64,000 nucleotides of DNA. Origin: Breoghania corrubedonensis. Its GTDB lineage: Bacteria; Pseudomonadota; Alphaproteobacteria; Rhizobiales; Stappiaceae. Both the position numbers and the translations under genes were made by a program. Positions 24,387 to 42,489 of the stretch are shown here, in pieces; position 1 is the stretch's first letter, and every line of letters starts with the position of its first letter. The stretch is from positions 1 to 64,000 of the forward strand of contig NZ_QAYG01000013.1 of assembly GCF_003053845.1 (NCBI RefSeq), written 5' to 3'. Below the pieces are notes generated by a model. It saw only the letters and a program-made list of their open reading frames with translations, was not told the DNA's origin and did not search any database.

Positions 24387-25301
24387 ATGTTTATTCTCGC
24401 TCACTTATCCGATCCTCATCTCGGCCCGCTTCCGAGCCCATCCTTGCGCGAGCTCGCTTCCAAGCGGGCTATCGGCTATCTGAACTGGCAGCGCAACCGT
24501 GCTTCCAAGTTCACCACCGCGCATCTGGACGGGCTTGTCGCCGATCTGAAGGCGCAGGCTCCTGACCACATCGCGCTCACCGGCGATCTCGTCAATATCG
24601 CCATCGAGGCAGAATTGGCGCCTGCCCGGCGCTGGCTCGATGCGCTCGGTGCTCCCGAAGATGTGTCGGTCGTTCCTGGCAATCACGACGCCTATGTCCC
24701 CGGCGCCTTGCGCAAGGCGAGCGAGGCGTGGGCGCCATTCATGCGCGGTGACAACGAGCATCTGGCTGCCGCCTACCCCTATGTGCGCCGACGCGGCGAT
24801 ATTGCGCTCGTCGGTGTTTCCAGCGCGCGTGCCTCGGCCCCGTTCCTGGCCACGGGCCATGTCAGCACGGGCCAGGCCAAGCTGCTTTGCCAGCACCTCC
24901 AAACACTCGGACGCAAAGGGCTGTTCCGGGTCGTGATGATCCACCACCCTCCGGTTCGCGGCTCCACCGATTGGCACAAGCGGCTGGTTGCAGGTTCCCG
25001 GGTTCGAGCCGCCATTCAGGAAGGCGGCGCCGAGCTCGTGTTGCATGGCCACACCCACGTGGACAGCCTGCACTGGCTCAAGGGACCGAAAGGCCCCGTT
25101 CCCGTTGTCGGGGTTCCGGCGGCATCGAACGCACCGGGCGGCAAGAAGCCAGGTGCGCGATACAATCTCTTCGGGATCGAGAAGGCCGGCGACGATTGGC
25201 ACTGTCACTGGCGCGAGCGCGGATACGAAAAACCGGGCCAGGGTGTCGTGGATATTCGCGAGCGCAATCTTTCGGACGAGTTGCTCGCGGCGGCCGAATA
25301 A
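24387..25301 (+). CDS. Calcineurin-like metallophosphoesterase
   Basis: A 304-residue metallophosphoesterase with the metal-binding motifs in order: DPHLG near 10-14 (variant of DxH), LTGDLVN near 64-70 (GDxx), PGNHDAY near 96-102 (GNHD), MIHHPP near 188-193, and HGHTHVD near 223-229. The set is complete, so the enzyme should be active, probably on a cyclic nucleotide or another phosphodiester. Starts at ATG 24387. Convergent with the membrane-anchored protein at 25335. Confidence 0.92.
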   Translation: MFILAHLSDPHLGPLPSPSLRELASKRAIGYLNWQRNRASKFTTAHLDGLVADLKAQAPDHIALTGDLVNIAIEAELAPARRWLDALGAPEDVSVVPGNHDAYVPGALRKASEAWAPFMRGDNEHLAAAYPYVRRRGDIALVGVSSARASAPFLATGHVSTGQAKLLCQHLQTLGRKGLFRVVMIHHPPVRGSTDWHKRLVAGSRVRAAIQEGGAELVLHGHTHVDSLHWLKGPKGPVPVVGVPAASNAPGGKKPGARYNLFGIEKAGDDWHCHWRERGYEKPGQGVVDIRERNLSDELLAAAE

Positions 25302-31770: not shown

Positions 31771-33132
31771 CTAGTAGGCAGCATAGCGGGGTTCGCCGGG
31801 CGACGGGATTTGCGTCCCCTCTCCGGCGTAGAGATTGAGCTTGTTGCGCAATGTGCGAATGGAGATTCCGAGAATCTTCGCCGCATGGGTGCGATTGCCC
31901 AGGCAATGATCCAGCGTTTCCAGAATGAGCTGCTTTTCGACTTCCGCAACGGTGCGCCCGACCATGGTGCGGCTGACCGCTTCCGCCGTCATGGCAGCCT
32001 GCTCGGCCGTCCCCCCGCCGCTGCGGATGGGGCTGCCATCGGGCATCAGGATGGCCGCCGCCGAGATTTCCTCGTCCTGCGCCAACAATACGGCGCGGTG
32101 CATCGTGTTTTCAAGCTCGCGCACGTTGCCGGGCCACGGATTGGACGCAAGCGCGCGGCGCGCATCCGCACCGATCGGAAGCTCAGGCACCCCGTTGATC
32201 TCGGCATACTTGCGCACGAAATGCTGGGCGAGTTCCAGAACGTCGGCGGGGCGCGAACGCAACGGCGGGATCTTCAGGTTGACCACGTTGAGCCGGTAGA
32301 GAAGATCCTCGCGGAACCGCCCGGCGCGCACCTCTTCCGCCAGATCCCGGTTCGACGTGGCGATGATGCGGATGTCGACGGGCACCGGACGCGTGCCCCC
32401 GACCCGGTCGATCACGCGCTCCTGCAAGGCCCTGAGAAGCTTTGCCTGCAGACGGATATCCATTTCGGAAATCTCGTCGAGCAGCAGCGTGCCGCCATCG
32501 GCCTCCTCGAACTTGCCGACACGGCGTGCAACGGCGCCCGTGAACGCGCCCTTCTCGTGCCCGAAGAGTTCCGATTCCAGCAGATTGTCGGGAATGGCGG
32601 CGCAGTTGATCGAGACGAAGGTCTTCTTCACGCGCTGCGACCTTCGGTGAACGTGGCGCGCCAGCACTTCCTTGCCCGTACCGGATTCACCCGTGATCAG
32701 CACCGAGGCGTCCGAGGGAGCGATCTGCTCGGCGAGTTTCACCACCGCGGCCATCGCCTCGTCGCGGTAGATGAGATCGGACTGGTCCTCCGCCACCGCG
32801 CTGAGGACAGCGGCGATCAGGTCCGGGTCCGGCGGCAGCGGGATGTACTCCTTGGCGCCGGCGCGGATGGCATCGACCGCAGCGCGGGCATCCGATTGTG
32901 TGCCGCAGGCGACGACCGGAACGTGGATGCGTTCGTGCTGCAGTCGTTCGATCAGTGAGGCGATGTCGAGACCGACATCGATCATGATCAGATCCGCGCC
33001 CTTGCCGGCGCGAAGTGTCTTGAGACCGTTCTCGACGGTCTCGGCGAAAGTGACGCTGGCGCCGCTTTCCATGGCGATCTTGGAAGCCACGGTAAGCTGT
33101 CCGCCGAGCGTGCCAATGATCAGAAGGCGCAT
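31771..33132 (-). CDS. flbD: Sigma-54-dependent flagellar regulator FlbD
   Basis: Activator of late flagellar genes at sigma-54 promoters. The 453-residue protein has a receiver-like N-domain (1-115), an AAA+ domain (about 128-365) with Walker A GESGTGKE, the sigma-54 contact loop GAFTGA, and Walker B LLLDEIS, then a Fis-type helix-turn-helix (NRTHAAKILGISIRTLRNKL, about 415-434). The receiver lacks the usual N-terminal acidic pair (IIGTLGG) and the Lys (YIPLP for YxPKP), although MIDVG retains an Asp. This matches FlbD of Caulobacter, which works without classical phosphorylation. A sigma-54 promoter is seen upstream of fliK. Confidence 0.94.
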   Translation of the reverse strand: MRLLIIGTLGGQLTVASKIAMESGASVTFAETVENGLKTLRAGKGADLIMIDVGLDIASLIERLQHERIHVPVVACGTQSDARAAVDAIRAGAKEYIPLPPDPDLIAAVLSAVAEDQSDLIYRDEAMAAVVKLAEQIAPSDASVLITGESGTGKEVLARHVHRRSQRVKKTFVSINCAAIPDNLLESELFGHEKGAFTGAVARRVGKFEEADGGTLLLDEISEMDIRLQAKLLRALQERVIDRVGGTRPVPVDIRIIATSNRDLAEEVRAGRFREDLLYRLNVVNLKIPPLRSRPADVLELAQHFVRKYAEINGVPELPIGADARRALASNPWPGNVRELENTMHRAVLLAQDEEISAAAILMPDGSPIRSGGGTAEQAAMTAEAVSRTMVGRTVAEVEKQLILETLDHCLGNRTHAAKILGISIRTLRNKLNLYAGEGTQIPSPGEPRYAAY

Positions 33133-36957: not shown

Positions 36958-36986
36958 CCGCTAGGCAAAAATTGCCTCGGTCATGG

Positions 36987-37001
36987 TAAACAACCGGTTA
37001 A
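36987..37001 (-). promoter_or_regulatory. Near-consensus CtrA box upstream of fliF
   Basis: On the minus strand this reads TTAA-N7-TTTA, seven of eight matches to the CtrA consensus. It is about 120-130 bases upstream of the fliF start. In Caulobacter the fliF operon is a CtrA-activated class II operon, so this is a sensible candidate. Confidence 0.45.
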
Positions 37002-37181
37002 CAAAATATTGCCAGCCCTTTAACAGCCGTGGAAAACAGCGGCGCCTCGCCCTTTCGTTTCCCGCGCAACACGGCAAATTTCGCCGTTCCGGTTAACGGA
37101 GTCCGTGCGATACCGCACGCGATCGCGCGGACTGCCAGCATGCCGGAAATGCTATTGGCAATTTTCAAAAGGTATAAAATG

Positions 37182-37208
37182 AAAAGCGGGCCGGCATGAC
37201 CGGCCCGC
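37182..37208 (-). terminator. Terminator downstream of sciP
   Basis: Perfect 9-base GC arms (37186-37194 and 37200-37208) with a five-base loop. On the minus strand the hairpin is followed by TTTTC and an AT-rich stretch. It is about 86 bases past the sciP stop, so it separates sciP from the fliF operon. Confidence 0.8.
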
Positions 37209-37293
37209 ATCGATTGATTAAAACGATCTGCAAGCGATCGCTTCCGCCTGTGCGGAAACCGCGACAGGCCGCGCTATGGAACGCAAAGTCCCA

Positions 37294-37569
37294 CTACGGA
37301 CGATACTGCTGAACCCGCGTCGCCCGAAGACCCGCAAGCCCGTGCTTATCGATGGAACTCTGCCAGGACAGGAATTCCTCGACGGTCAAGGTATAGCGCT
37401 GACAGGCCTCGTCCAGCGACAATAGTCCACCGCGCACCGCAGCCACGACTTCCGCCTTGCGGCGAATGACCCAGCGCTTGGTATTGGTCGGCGGCAGATC
37501 GGCAACCGTCAATGGGCTGCCGTCAGGCCCTATGACGTATTTGACCCGAGAACGCACTTGTTCGGTCAT
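37294..37569 (-). CDS. sciP: CtrA inhibitor SciP (DUF1153)
   Basis: A 91-codon gene (90 residues) for the small DNA-binding protein that, in Caulobacter, binds CtrA and blocks its activation of flagellar and other genes. It has the family core: VIGPDGSPLTVADLPPTNTKRWVIRRKAEVVAAVRGGLLSLDEACQRY, then the helix-turn-helix end YTLTVEEFLSWQ. It has its own terminator and lies next to the fliF operon, one of the expected CtrA targets. Possible CtrA-like TTAA-N7-CTAA lies about 170-180 bases upstream (37738-37752). Confidence 0.94.
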   Translation of the reverse strand: MTEQVRSRVKYVIGPDGSPLTVADLPPTNTKRWVIRRKAEVVAAVRGGLLSLDEACQRYTLTVEEFLSWQSSIDKHGLAGLRATRVQQYRP

Positions 37570-38087
37570 CGTACTCTCACACTAAACGTGACCTGCGAAG
37601 CCTCGTCCATCCGGACGCATCCGACCGGGTTGCTGGACTATGCTTCAACAAATATTTCCAGACGGCTTCCGATGGCTTGAAGACATCAAGTTCAACGGAA
37701 AACGCCTCAGACACCGAGAGACAATACCGGGCTGGTTTTAAAATTTACCTAAGCCATTAGCAACAATTCGGTAAGAGTTAGCACTACCGCTTCCGCCCTT
37801 CCCACGCGCGCTATCGGGAGAGCGGAAAAACGAAAAAATGGCGGAATACGGTCGTTTTCCGTATTCCGCCATCCGGCTCGCACTTCTAAAATCGGGAAAT
37901 GACAACCTCGTGCCAGCCATCACGCGTCGGAAAAACAGACCGACGTCGTCACGATAACTGCGGGGCCATCCTCATAGAGAGAGGCATCTGACGCGCCTGT
38001 GTTCATGGAAGCGGTCTGAGAGAATCGCCAGCATCGCGGCAAAGGAATCCGAACCCCGGCGATCGATTCGAAACGGGACAGCGCGAG
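37570..38087. other. Intergenic region between flgD and sciP
   Basis: 518 bases between two minus-strand genes. It contains the strong flgD terminator (37833-37872) and a TTAA-N7-CTAA near-match to the CtrA box at 37738-37752, upstream of sciP. A 61-codon minus-strand frame inside the hairpin region is not supported. Confidence 0.7.
37833..37872 (-). terminator. Strong terminator of the fliK-flgD operon
   Basis: Perfect 14-base arms (37838-37851 and 37859-37872) around a 7-base loop. On the minus strand the hairpin is followed by six Ts (complement of As 37833-37838). It lies about 215 bases beyond the flgD stop. This is the clearest intrinsic terminator in the window. Confidence 0.88.
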
Positions 38088-38750
38088 CTACAGGTTCGCC
38101 GACACCGAGGTGACCGACGAGAGGGGGATCGCCACATCACCCATCTTCAAGACCGGCTCGCTGCCACTGAAGTCAATACCATCGACGATGCCGGTCGCCT
38201 CCGTTTCGATATCGATCTTCTTGCCGTTGGCATCCTTGGCGGAGAACTCGATCGAATAGGCACCGTCGGGTGCTGTCGTGCCGGAATTCGTGCGTCCGTC
38301 CCAGACATAGGCACCCTTCCCCTTCGAGATATCCGCCGTGTGCGAATAGACGATCGCACCCATCGAATTTCGAATGGTGATCTCCGCGTCCTCGGCGGAT
38401 TTGGAAGCGTCGAATTCCCAAGTGGCGTACCCGTCGATCAGCACGCTCTGGTCGCCAGTCGCGGTGACGCGCTGGCCGATATAGCCGACAAGGTTCGTCG
38501 CATTGCTGGACGAGACCTTGTCGATGAGGGTGTCCATACTCGAGTTCAGCTTAATCTGCTGCTCGACCGAGGAATATTGCACCAGCTGATTGGTAAAATC
38601 TTCCGCCTTCAACGGATCGAGCGGATCCTGAACCTTCAGCTGGGCCGTCAACAAGGACAGAAACATCTCGTAGTTGGACGACAGGGCATTTGTGCTGTTG
38701 GACGCTGCCGAACTGCCTGCGGATGACGAACCCGTAATACTGTCAACCAT
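38088..38750 (-). CDS. flgD: Flagellar hook assembly scaffold FlgD
   Basis: Hook-cap protein that guides FlgE polymerisation and is then discarded outside the cell. The 220-residue protein has the FlgD N-terminal signature (MFLSLLTAQLKVQDPLDPLKAEDFTNQLVQYSSVEQQIKLN, about 29-69) and a C-domain with Tudor/Ig-like folds, where GAYVWDGRTNSGTTAPDGAYSIEFSA is the FlgD Ig motif. The ATG at 38750 gives MVDSITG; a GTG at 38771 would add seven residues. It sits 50 bases after fliK in one operon and is followed by a strong terminator. Confidence 0.94.
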   Translation of the reverse strand: MVDSITGSSSAGSSAASNSTNALSSNYEMFLSLLTAQLKVQDPLDPLKAEDFTNQLVQYSSVEQQIKLNSSMDTLIDKVSSSNATNLVGYIGQRVTATGDQSVLIDGYATWEFDASKSAEDAEITIRNSMGAIVYSHTADISKGKGAYVWDGRTNSGTTAPDGAYSIEFSAKDANGKKIDIETEATGIVDGIDFSGSEPVLKMGDVAIPLSSVTSVSANL

Positions 38751-38800
38751 CACTCTGTTTCCTCTACGCACATACCCAGTTTCATCCGCCGGGCTTCCGG

Positions 38801-40894
38801 CTAGATTCTGATATCGACGCCGCCGGCTCCGTGCCGGCTGTAAGCCGCTATGCGATCCAGCATCTGCTGCTGATCGGCGGCTTCGCTGGCCGCAGGCCCG
38901 CCGGCAAGCGGACCCGTTGGCGTTCCATTGCCATTCTGATTGCCGTCACCACCTGCAAAGCCCTGGCCCTGGCCCTGGTCTTTCAGCGAAAACTGCAATC
39001 CGCCGTCCGAATTGGCCTTCAAGCCCGCATTCTCCAGGGCGCGCTCCATGCCACGCTGGTCGCGCATGAACATGTCCAGCGTGTCGCGGCGCTCCACGAC
39101 GAGATGCGCCTGCACCTTGCCGTCGTCGTTGATCTTCAAATGCACGTCTACCCGACCGAGTTCGGGCGGGTCGAGACGGATTTCAAACCGTGTCACGCCG
39201 CGTTGGGCATTGCGCGCAATCTCGGTTGCGACCATCGCGGTGGGCAACGCCGTCGCCGTACCCTGGCCGCTCTGTGCCGCGCGCACCGCTTGTCCGTCAG
39301 CGCCCCGCACATTCGCGGCGCTGCCGTCTACACTCGTTCCGAGTACCAGCGGATCGAGCGTGTCACTCTTGGCGCCGTCGACGGCCTTGTCGGCTGATGT
39401 CGCAGCAGCCCCAGCCAAAACCGCACTCGCGCCCGTCACGCCACGCGTGCGCTCGTGGGCTGTCGACTTGTTCGCTCCCTGCGGTTCCACCTTTTGGATT
39501 TCCGCATCGCCGTCATCGCCAACGTCGGAAACGGACGAGAGATTGTTGAGCCGCGGATCGCCGTCATCGACAGGCTGCCCCGCTCCCGCGGCGGCCTTGA
39601 GGCCTGCCGACTGGGCTGACACCTGATCGGGGGTACGCTGCGGTGTCGCCTGCGGCTTGGCGGGATCGGCTCCCTTATCAGCGTCCGTCGGATCTGCCGA
39701 ATTCGCGCCGTCCATGTTCAAGGCAGAAGCCTTGGAATTCGTCTTTGCAACAACGACCGGTACATTCTCGTCACCGTCCGCGACCGGAGCGGTTGAGACA
39801 GTGGCCGTCGGACCGTTTCGCATTGCCTTGACCGAAAGAACGGCAGAGTCCGTCGCCGCGTTATCGCTCTTGCCGGCAGCAGCGGTTTCGCCCCCCGCCG
39901 GAGATCCCGACGGCAGCGTGACAGCCGGCGAACGGGCGAGTGCCTTGTCGGACGCCGTCTGCGCCGGCGCCCCAGCCGCGGAAGACTTGTCCACATTGGC
40001 CTTGTCGGCTGGCGATCCTGCCGACTTCGCGTCCTTTCCGGCTCCATCGGCGGCGACCGCCGTCTCGCTATCTTTGAGCGTATTCGCCACCGCGTCGGCA
40101 GTTGATCCCGCCTTCGCCTCAATACCGCCCGCCATGGCCGCCGCGCCCGAGGCATTCGCCGCTGCCGGCACCTGGGCAGGCGCGCCGCCCTGAGCAGGCG
40201 ACGTCCCCGACGACTGCGCATTCATTGCAGCATCACCGGCCGCTTGGTCACCAGATGCCGAAGCCCCGGCAACCTGGGGGAAGAAGGTCGGCAAATCCAA
40301 CCCGGCATCACCCGAGGAAGCTTGCCCCGCCGCCGGCGCACCCGATGTCGGTGCGTCCTGAACCGGCATTGTCCCATCGCTCGCCGTATTCGTCTGTGCG
40401 CCCGCATTGACCGTGGCAGCATCCGCCCCGGTTACGGCGTCGACCTGCGGAACGAATGCCAGACCGGCTTTCAAAGCCGCCGTACCTTCGTCCACCGCTC
40501 CATCGCCAGTATCTGTGCCATCCCCATCTGCGACGGCTTCACCATCGTCCGGCGTTGCCGCTAGCGCCTGCACAACGGCCTGGGCGAGTTCGCCGGTCGG
40601 ACTTGCCGCTACGGCCACCGTTGTATCGGCCCCAAGGTCAATGTCGGCCTGGATGACGCCGAGGACATCAAAGGATCCCCCGCTCATGCCGGACGTCCCG
40701 GCAGAGGCGGGTTGACCGGCACTCCCGGCGTCGCTCGCGGAGGTCGCGCCACCCGACATGACGCCCGAAAGCTGTGCCGCGAACTGGCCCGATGCGCCAC
40801 CGCCCTGGTTGCCGCTGGCCGTACCCGCGCCTGCACCGACGGAAAAACCGCCCATGGTCGGATCCAGCGAACTCATCGACTCGAATGTCAGCAC
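38801..40894 (-). CDS. fliK: Flagellar hook-length control protein FliK
   Basis: Measures hook length and switches export specificity. The 697-residue protein is long for FliK because of an Ala/Asp/Gly/Ser-rich, disordered N-terminal ruler (about 1-560) of low complexity. The conserved Flg_hook C-domain (about 565-660) carries RFEIRLDPPELGRVDVHLKIND and VVERRDTLDMFMRDQRGMERALENAG, followed by a Gly/Gln-rich tail. The GTG at 40894 has GAGG about 6 bases upstream; an ATG at 40876 would remove six residues. A sigma-54 promoter lies 55-80 bases upstream. First gene of fliK-flgD. Confidence 0.92.
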   Translation of the reverse strand: MLTFESMSSLDPTMGGFSVGAGAGTASGNQGGGASGQFAAQLSGVMSGGATSASDAGSAGQPASAGTSGMSGGSFDVLGVIQADIDLGADTTVAVAASPTGELAQAVVQALAATPDDGEAVADGDGTDTGDGAVDEGTAALKAGLAFVPQVDAVTGADAATVNAGAQTNTASDGTMPVQDAPTSGAPAAGQASSGDAGLDLPTFFPQVAGASASGDQAAGDAAMNAQSSGTSPAQGGAPAQVPAAANASGAAAMAGGIEAKAGSTADAVANTLKDSETAVAADGAGKDAKSAGSPADKANVDKSSAAGAPAQTASDKALARSPAVTLPSGSPAGGETAAAGKSDNAATDSAVLSVKAMRNGPTATVSTAPVADGDENVPVVVAKTNSKASALNMDGANSADPTDADKGADPAKPQATPQRTPDQVSAQSAGLKAAAGAGQPVDDGDPRLNNLSSVSDVGDDGDAEIQKVEPQGANKSTAHERTRGVTGASAVLAGAAATSADKAVDGAKSDTLDPLVLGTSVDGSAANVRGADGQAVRAAQSGQGTATALPTAMVATEIARNAQRGVTRFEIRLDPPELGRVDVHLKINDDGKVQAHLVVERRDTLDMFMRDQRGMERALENAGLKANSDGGLQFSLKDQGQGQGFAGGDGNQNGNGTPTGPLAGGPAASEAADQQQMLDRIAAYSRHGAGGVDIRI

Positions 40895-40957
40895 GGCTAC
40901 CTCGCACGCTCCAACGCCAACCGCTCGGATTGGCGGATGGAATTACCCGCCTCCTTC

Positions 40958-40976
40958 TAGCAAGGGCAGGGCCAAT
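40958..40976 (-). promoter_or_regulatory. Sigma-54 (RpoN) promoter of fliK
   Basis: On the minus strand the sequence reads TTGGCCCTGCCCTTGCTA. It has TGGC at -24 and TTGCT at -12 with exactly ten bases between the invariant GG and GC, the hallmark of RpoN promoters. Transcription would start near 40948, giving a leader of about 54 bases before the fliK GTG. FlbD, a sigma-54 activator, is encoded in the same flagellar cluster. Confidence 0.78.
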
Positions 40977-41027
40977 CTCGACGATGGCGGAGTTCTGCGG
41001 AAAACGCACTTCGCCTGACGCCGAAAC

Positions 41028-41074
41028 GCCCTGGCAGGCAGCGGAAATCTTTGCCAGGGCGGCAAAGCTTGCCG
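41028..41074. promoter_or_regulatory. Two GGCA/TGCC inverted repeats, candidate FlbD enhancer
   Basis: The first dyad has perfect 9-base arms (41028-41036 and 41052-41060). The second is CGGCAA-AGC-TTGCCG (41060-41074). Together they lie about 80-125 bases upstream of the predicted fliK transcription start, where sigma-54 enhancers usually sit. Their GGCA/TGCC character recalls the ftr elements bound by Caulobacter FlbD. Binding is inferred. Confidence 0.55.
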
Positions 41075-41295
41075 GGTATGTGAGGACAGAATTGGCGAGC
41101 GGGGCCTCATTCGATATAGTGCGCCCAAATAAACCGCCCCATTGAGAAAGCGTTTTCCTTTCCCAAATAGGCGGCAGGCGCGTAAAGGAACGCGCAACAC
41201 GATCAAGCGACCGCCAGCGAGGGATTGCCAGCCTGTCGCGCCGCCGCAACGGCCGCTCTCGCTCAACCGGCCGATAACTCACGGAGTGGCCACCG

Positions 41296-42489
41296 ATGCT
41301 CAACAGCCTGGACCTTCCCGGCCGACCGGAGGATACGCGCGTCGTCGTCGCGATGTCCGGCGGTGTCGATTCCTCAGTCGTCGCTGGCCTTCTCAAGCGC
41401 CAGGGATACGATGTCGTCGGCGTGACGCTGCAGCTTTACGACCACGGCGAAGCGATCCACCGCAAGGGCGCCTGTTGCGCCGGACAGGACATCCACGATG
41501 CCCGGCGCGTCGCGGAGACCATCGGCATTCCCCATTACGTGCTTGATTACGAACAGCGCTTCCGCGAGGCGGTGATCGATCCCTTTGCCGCCAGCTATAT
41601 CGCGGGTGAAACGCCAATTCCGTGCGTCGCGTGCAACCAGACGGTCAAGTTCCACGACCTGCTCGACACCGCGCGCGAGCTGGGCGCCGACGTTCTGGCG
41701 ACCGGCCACTATGTTCGCACCCGTCCGCTCAACGGTCGGCGCGCGCTTTTCCGTCCCGTCGATCTGGAGCGCGACCAGAGCTATTTCCTGTTCGCGACCA
41801 CGCCTGAGCAGCTCGAGTTCCTGCGCTTCCCTCTGGGCGGGCTGACGAAGCCCGAAACCCGCGAACTGGCCCGTGAACTGGGCCTGGAGATCGCCGACAA
41901 GCAGGACAGCCAGGATATCTGTTTCGTACCGACCGGGCGCTATTCCGACCTCATCAACAAGCTGAAGCCGGGAGCGGCGGAAAAGGGCGAGATCGTCCAT
42001 GTGGATGGACGCGTCCTCGGCCATCACGAAGGCATCATCAACTACACGATCGGTCAGCGCCGGGGCATCGGCATTGCGGCCGGCGAGCCGCTTTATGTCG
42101 TCCATCTCGATGCGGACAACAGCCGCGTCATCGTTGGCCCGCGCGAGGCGCTGATGACCCACCGCATGCGGCTGCGCGAGGTCAACTGGCTGGGCGACGA
42201 CGCGCTAGAGGCCTTGCCGGAAGGCGGACTGGAGATTTACGCCAAGGTGCGCTCCACGCGCCCGCCGCGCCCTGCCCGTTTGCTGCGCGAAGGCGATGAC
42301 ATCATCGTGGAGCTTGACGGCGGCGAACACGGCATCGCGCCTGGTCAGGCCTGCGTTTTCTATGACAGCGACGGTGATGCGGCCCGCGTTTTCGGCGGCG
42401 GCTGGATCGATCGTACAGAACGCGCCCGCGACGCGGAGAGCGCGTTTGCCGCACCAAACGACGTTCAGGCAGCGGCCGCCAACGGATGA
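41296..42489 (+). CDS. mnmA: tRNA-uridine 2-sulfurtransferase MnmA
   Basis: Adds sulfur to C2 of wobble U34 in tRNA-Glu, -Gln and -Lys. The 397-residue protein has the PP-loop ATP motif ([12 protein letters not shown], about 19-30), first catalytic Cys region [12 protein letters not shown] (about 110-121), ATGHYVR, and second Cys in [20 protein letters not shown] and LYVVHLD follow, as in all MnmA. It starts at ATG 41296 with GGAG about 11 bases upstream. Its TGA overlaps the following methyltransferase ATG. Confidence 0.96.

Follow-up and report, generated by a model that had tools for sequence, protein, structure and literature searches.

Which signal turns on the hook genes fliK and flgD of Breoghania corrubedonensis, and is it the one known from Caulobacter? 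The window, by which we mean the whole 64,000-nt stretch of DNA that was analyzed, carries a flagellar cluster in the order mnmA (divergent), fliK, flgD, sciP, fliF, fliG, fliH, fliN, flbD and flhA, with a gap of 400 bp between mnmA and fliK. The genes around this gap, and a hairpin further downstream, are as follows:

41296-42489, plus strand: mnmA, the divergent, conserved neighbor used as the anchor for comparisons (PF03054)
38801-40894, minus strand: fliK, hook-length control protein, GTG start (PF02120, 58 bits)
38088-38771, minus strand: flgD, hook cap protein (PF03963, PF13860, PF13861)
37836-37874, minus strand: terminator-like hairpin 3' of flgD, 16 pairs and then a T-rich tail
37294-37569, minus strand: sciP, CtrA inhibitor family, adjoining flgD (NF051866, PF06627)

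The presence of a hairpin with a T-rich tail after flgD suggests that the transcription unit is probably fliK-flgD, with its probable end at 37836-37874. The region has six terminator-like sites where shuffles gave 4.0, and this hairpin has the longest stem. Among named FlgD proteins, the closest comes from a Breoghania MAG (67%). The sciP gene lies between flgD and fliF here, and many of the relatives retrieved for comparison likewise have it directly after flgD. Elsewhere in the window, a model for an anti-phage phosphoesterase matched an ORF at 24387-25301 weakly, at 31 bits where the cut-off is 420.

The consensus of sigma-54 promoters is TGGC-N7-TTGC, with GG and GC ten bases apart, and the transcript begins about 12 bases downstream. 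The original prediction had assigned a -24/-12 element, with GG and GC exactly ten bases apart, to the DNA 55-80 bases before fliK, and two GGCA/TGCC repeats to the DNA further upstream. The sites that we recognize in the gap are these:

40959-40974, minus strand: sigma-54 -24/-12 core TGGCCCTGCCCTTGCT, TGGC-N7-TTGCT, kept in 44 of 46 mnmA-fliK gaps
41060-41074, minus strand: FlbD/ftr-like dyad 1, CGGCAAGCTTTGCCG, perfect, centered 93 bp upstream of the core
41042-41056, minus strand: FlbD/ftr-like dyad 2, TGGCAAAGATTTCCG, with 2 mismatches, centered 75 bp upstream of the core

The element, TTGGCCCTGCCCTTGCTA, extends over 40958-40975 on the minus strand. Its core agrees with TGGC-N7-TTGC and the ten-base spacing from GG to GC was borne out, as was its placement before fliK, but the distance had to be corrected to 64-81 bases 5' of the GTG at 40894. 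The fliK transcript is predicted to start near 40948. As for the two repeats, the first stood as dyad 1, whereas the second was re-placed, in another register, to 41042-41056; the centers of the two dyads are 18 bp apart. The wider repeat originally taken as the second, CCTGGCA-N15-TGCCAGG, is present at 41030-41058, and was rejected as the second dyad because, at up to 3 mismatches in 14, it was not found in the same gap of the two same-genus genomes. The dyads are equated with ftr sites by analogy of context, rather than by comparison with the Caulobacter ftr consensus.

We then asked how far these elements exceed chance. The exact pattern TGGC-N7-TTGCW has a single match in the whole window, namely the fliK core; with one mismatch allowed, there were 22 matches against 26.7 expected, so that variants nearby carry no signal. 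Genome-wide, the exact core had 63 matches and the reversed control pattern 87. This is no enrichment beyond chance, and the core was rejected as stand-alone evidence. The promoter call was decided by conservation. The perfect dyad is likewise the sole perfect match in the window and one of 3 such places in a genome of 5.33 Mb. When as many as two mismatches are allowed, 9 dyads are counted in the window where 6.2 would be expected, a difference that is not significant.

For the comparison, FlgD was searched for in 61 genomes, 53 of which, the own genome included, had a match. We fetched 47 of the 52 matching relatives, and 2 of these lacked the mnmA anchor, leaving 45 plus the own genome, 46 in all. 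In a MAFFT alignment of the promoter region within the genus, the 5' half of the gap aligned and the stretch with dyads and core did not, so conservation was scored by motif instead, over 600 bp from the mnmA start and with a dyad of at most two mismatches centered 60-140 bp upstream of the core. The core was found in 44/46 gaps and the core together with a dyad in 42/46, counts that are not independent since the genomes share ancestry. Dinucleotide shuffles gave the core in 77/2300 and core plus dyad in 0/2300, and the reverse strand of the gaps 1/46 and 0/46, respectively. An independent scan of named genomes yielded 80 loci; removal of 3 without mnmA and of 12 duplicates left 65, among which close relatives may remain, and here the core was present in 57/65 and core plus dyad in 51/65. 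Thus, conservation of the -24/-12 element and dyads in relatives, which the original prediction had named as a check, gave a positive outcome in both sets. The full pattern is missing from 4/46 and 14/65 gaps. In the first set the exceptions are L083 (a variant core and no dyad), L114 (which lacks a core but has a perfect dyad), and L079 and L082 (a core, and no dyad at two mismatches); in the second, 7 of the 8 loci without the core retain GG-N10-GC and depart from the pattern at a single one of the four key bases. At the seventh position of the core the window has T, a base found in 6 of the 93 positive loci.

These counts bear on the idea that the -24/-12 element is a chance match and that a sigma-70, CtrA or read-through promoter drives fliK instead. 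The idea is in line with a core that, genome-wide, is no commoner than its reversed control, but it has to contend with a core that sits at the same place in 44/46 genomes and 57/65 loci, and with a crude sigma-70 scan that returned zero minus-strand sites in 37200-41400. We consider it extremely improbable.

The pairing of the dyads also recurs. A second dyad, at up to three mismatches, lies 15-25 bp from the best one in 53 of the 93 positive loci, with spacings of 18 to 21 bp the commonest; control windows 26-36 bp from the best dyad contained one in 4 cases upstream and 0 downstream. The dyads could also have a role at mnmA, with FlbD there repressing or activating the divergent mnmA promoter. 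A promoter-like TTGGCG-17-TATAGT is found on the plus strand at 41092-41120, 18 bp from dyad 1, and the CACTATA of this site is identical in three same-genus sequences. However, the scan gave 2 promoter-like sites where 1.0 was expected, and the dyads hold their distance to the sigma-54 core. A function at mnmA appears unlikely.

A sigma-54 promoter with upstream dyads calls for an activator, and the original prediction named FlbD, with GAFTGA intact and encoded 8 kb away in the same cluster. The gene is indeed there, at about 7.8 kb:

31771-33132, minus strand: flbD, sigma-54 activator with GAFTGA (NF050807, 810 bits, cut-off 750)

The protein has a sigma-54 interaction domain and a Fis-type HTH (Pfam), and GAFTGA is intact in the translation. 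The genome also encodes RpoN (C1:790708) and FliX (C2:506848). Among the 61 genomes, FlbD scored above the cut-off in 48 and was partial in one, a same-genus MAG in which the match (G002:C47:158043-158783) spans only model positions 1-247, which points either to a disrupted gene or to an error of assembly. The remaining 12 lack FlbD, and it is in these 12, too, that the FlgD of the window finds no strong match. The dyad-core pattern occurred in 44 of the 49 genomes with FlbD as opposed to 5 of the 12 without, and the reversed control pattern matched in 8/61; given these last two figures, single pattern matches are weak. In a class-wide sample of 385 genomes, the pattern matched in 165 and the control in 32 (hand count). 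The co-occurrence of pattern and FlbD points to FlbD, but it largely restates the presence of one common flagellar system.

Similar dyads were found at other flagellar genes. In the same genome, on G000:C2 (L130, L131), the full core with dyads precedes flgE-flgK, and a one-mismatch core with dyads precedes flgF and flgI, in the stretch that also encodes FliX. A looser dyad-plus-core scan, which covered the window and 13 genome stretches chosen in part from earlier matches and so does not amount to a genome-wide regulon, returned seven sites. Four of these precede the flagellar genes fliK, flgF, flgI and flgE; the other three have no recognized flagellar gene after them, and one is followed by a gene encoding a 3'-5' exonuclease domain. 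There are two more flgD-like genes in the genome (G000:C7:45167-45799 and G000:C5:193712-193984), and the same scan found no dyad plus core in the 20 kb around each. Upstream of fliF, two dyads were noted:

36963-36977, minus strand: FlbD-like dyad upstream of fliF, AGGCAATTTTTGCCT, adjoining a CtrA-like box
37072-37086, minus strand: second FlbD-like dyad, further upstream of fliF, 1 mismatch

The CtrA-like box, TTAACCGGTTGTTTA, at about 36987-37001, was picked by eye. Of 21 loci (20 relatives and the window), all but L172 have a dyad within the 250 bp that precede fliF (20/21), as against 64/2100 shuffles. The exact CtrA box TTAA-N7-TTAA was found upstream of fliF in 5/21 loci, and was not found there in the window.

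The recurrence of the dyads is relevant to which activator uses them. Sigma-54 could act at fliK with an NtrC, NtrX or DctD-like protein at the dyads. The FlbD model hits 11 places in the genome at E <= 0.001, one alone being above the cut-off, and mutant NtrC is reported to alter FlbD-dependent transcripts in some cases in Caulobacter (PMC12421884). Yet FlbD is the sole activator encoded in the flagellar cluster, similar dyads recur at other flagellar genes, and the 12 FlbD-less relatives are those that lack a strong FlgD match. Another activator at the dyads is accordingly a very unlikely alternative to FlbD.

We conclude, with a probability of roughly 0.93, that the DNA upstream of fliK-flgD is a Caulobacter-type class III sigma-54 promoter switched by FlbD, which would make expression await the early flagellar base, with FliX as the putative relay. 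Control of fliK-flgD by sigma-54 and FlbD, as originally predicted, is thus supported at the level of sequence by the conservation of core and dyads. The prediction had also termed fliK-flgD a late operon; in Caulobacter terms it is class III, that is, hook-stage, and not late. We propose that FlbD would bind the two dyads, 18 bp apart at 41042-41074, and loop to a sigma-54 holoenzyme parked at 40959-40974. Once the early base is built, a state that FliX may pass on to FlbD, the AAA+ domain of FlbD would open the holoenzyme and permit transcription of fliK-flgD. On the fliF dyad, beside the CtrA-like box, FlbD would instead shut the early operon.

This scheme is modeled on Caulobacter crescentus. 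There, FlbD binds ftr sites, represses fliF via ftr4 and activates the middle genes (PMC3930126), and fliK belongs to class III, its reporter requiring FliX, the partner of FlbD; without fliX, fliF-lacZ goes up and fliK-lacZ goes down (PMC3096577). The Breoghania promoter resembles the Caulobacter FlbD/ftr class III promoters (fliK and the hook operon) in its fliK target, sigma-54 core, FlbD and FliX, and promoter-near dyads (PMC3930126, PMC3096577). It differs in that its dyads are placed on the upstream side, at 75 and 93 bp, and in that no IHF-like site is recognized. The FlbD-type dyad beside a CtrA-like box at fliF likewise resembles ftr4, for which repression is described in Caulobacter (PMC3930126), and would make fliF a predicted target of repression here; unlike ftr4, the window has a second dyad further upstream and lacks the exact TTAA-N7-TTAA box. 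A wider likeness is to the FlgR, FlrC and FleR sigma-54 promoters of other polar flagellates, at which an enhancer-binding protein switches on the genes for rod and hook once the export apparatus has formed; those proteins have cognate kinases, whereas FlbD has none and is controlled by FliX (PMC7064773). Among the open-access papers listed, no title or abstract opening mentions FlbD promoters in Breoghania, which is no proof of absence. Judged by its elements, the locus is very probably a new, mostly expected instance, in Breoghania (Rhizobiales), of the known Caulobacter FlbD/ftr class III promoter.

In Caulobacter, class III FlbD promoters carry an IHF site between the dyads and the core, which we read as accessory and not defining. 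No IHF-like site was found in the 75-bp spacer of the window, even with 3 mismatches allowed, and we rejected bending by IHF there for this genome. Among the 93 loci, an IHF-like site (at most one mismatch to the consensus) was found in the 75-bp spacer of 37, versus 6.6 in shuffles; 32 of the 37 sites fall into two preferred positions, 20-24 and 33-37 bp before the core. In 74 of the loci, an upstream control stretch had such a site in 2 and the spacer in 29.

The dyad-to-core distances cluster near 82-85, 92-94, 101-104 and 115 bp. Over all 93 loci, the phasing was R = 0.56 at 10.7 bp, and over 71 clusters R = 0.53 at 10.9 bp; in each case 0/4000 jittered sets were as high. By genus, 14 of 16 Methylobacterium/Methylorubrum loci gave R = 0.87 at 10.6 (jittered 0/2000; distances of 71, 80-81, 91-92 and 101-104), and 8 of 10 Devosia loci R = 0.89 at 11.4 (jittered 8/2000) and R = 0.76 at 10.5 (distances of 82, 94, 104, 115 and 129). 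In the 12 Roseibium/Labrenzia loci the best period, 9.5, was at the edge of the range tried, and the fit at 10.5 was poor (R = 0.46); the 4 Stappia loci, of which L094 has the least certain genus label, were too few and not significant (216/2000). This disagreement among genera, together with shared ancestry and the pairing of dyads 18-22 bp apart, weakens the case for phasing. A tentative reading, to which we would give somewhat less than an even chance, is that FlbD acts from one helix face, that shifts in spacing across the Rhizobiales have mostly been by whole turns (to values near 71, 81, 92, 102 and 115 bp), and that some lineages make use of an IHF bend while others, Breoghania among them, do without it. 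The whole-turn clustering of distances, and an IHF-like site that is common in relatives and absent here, are possibly new.

Our findings would extend the FlbD/sigma-54 logic of Caulobacter, from readable DNA, to a marine lineage of the Rhizobiales, in which one dyad motif is found both at the hook operon, where it may serve activation, and at the fliF operon, which in Caulobacter is repressed by FlbD. If the phasing reading is true, the fliK promoter would represent a natural series of sigma-54 loops in which length has varied and phase has been held, and these natural spacings may offer a ready test bed for the constraints on enhancer looping at sigma-54 promoters.
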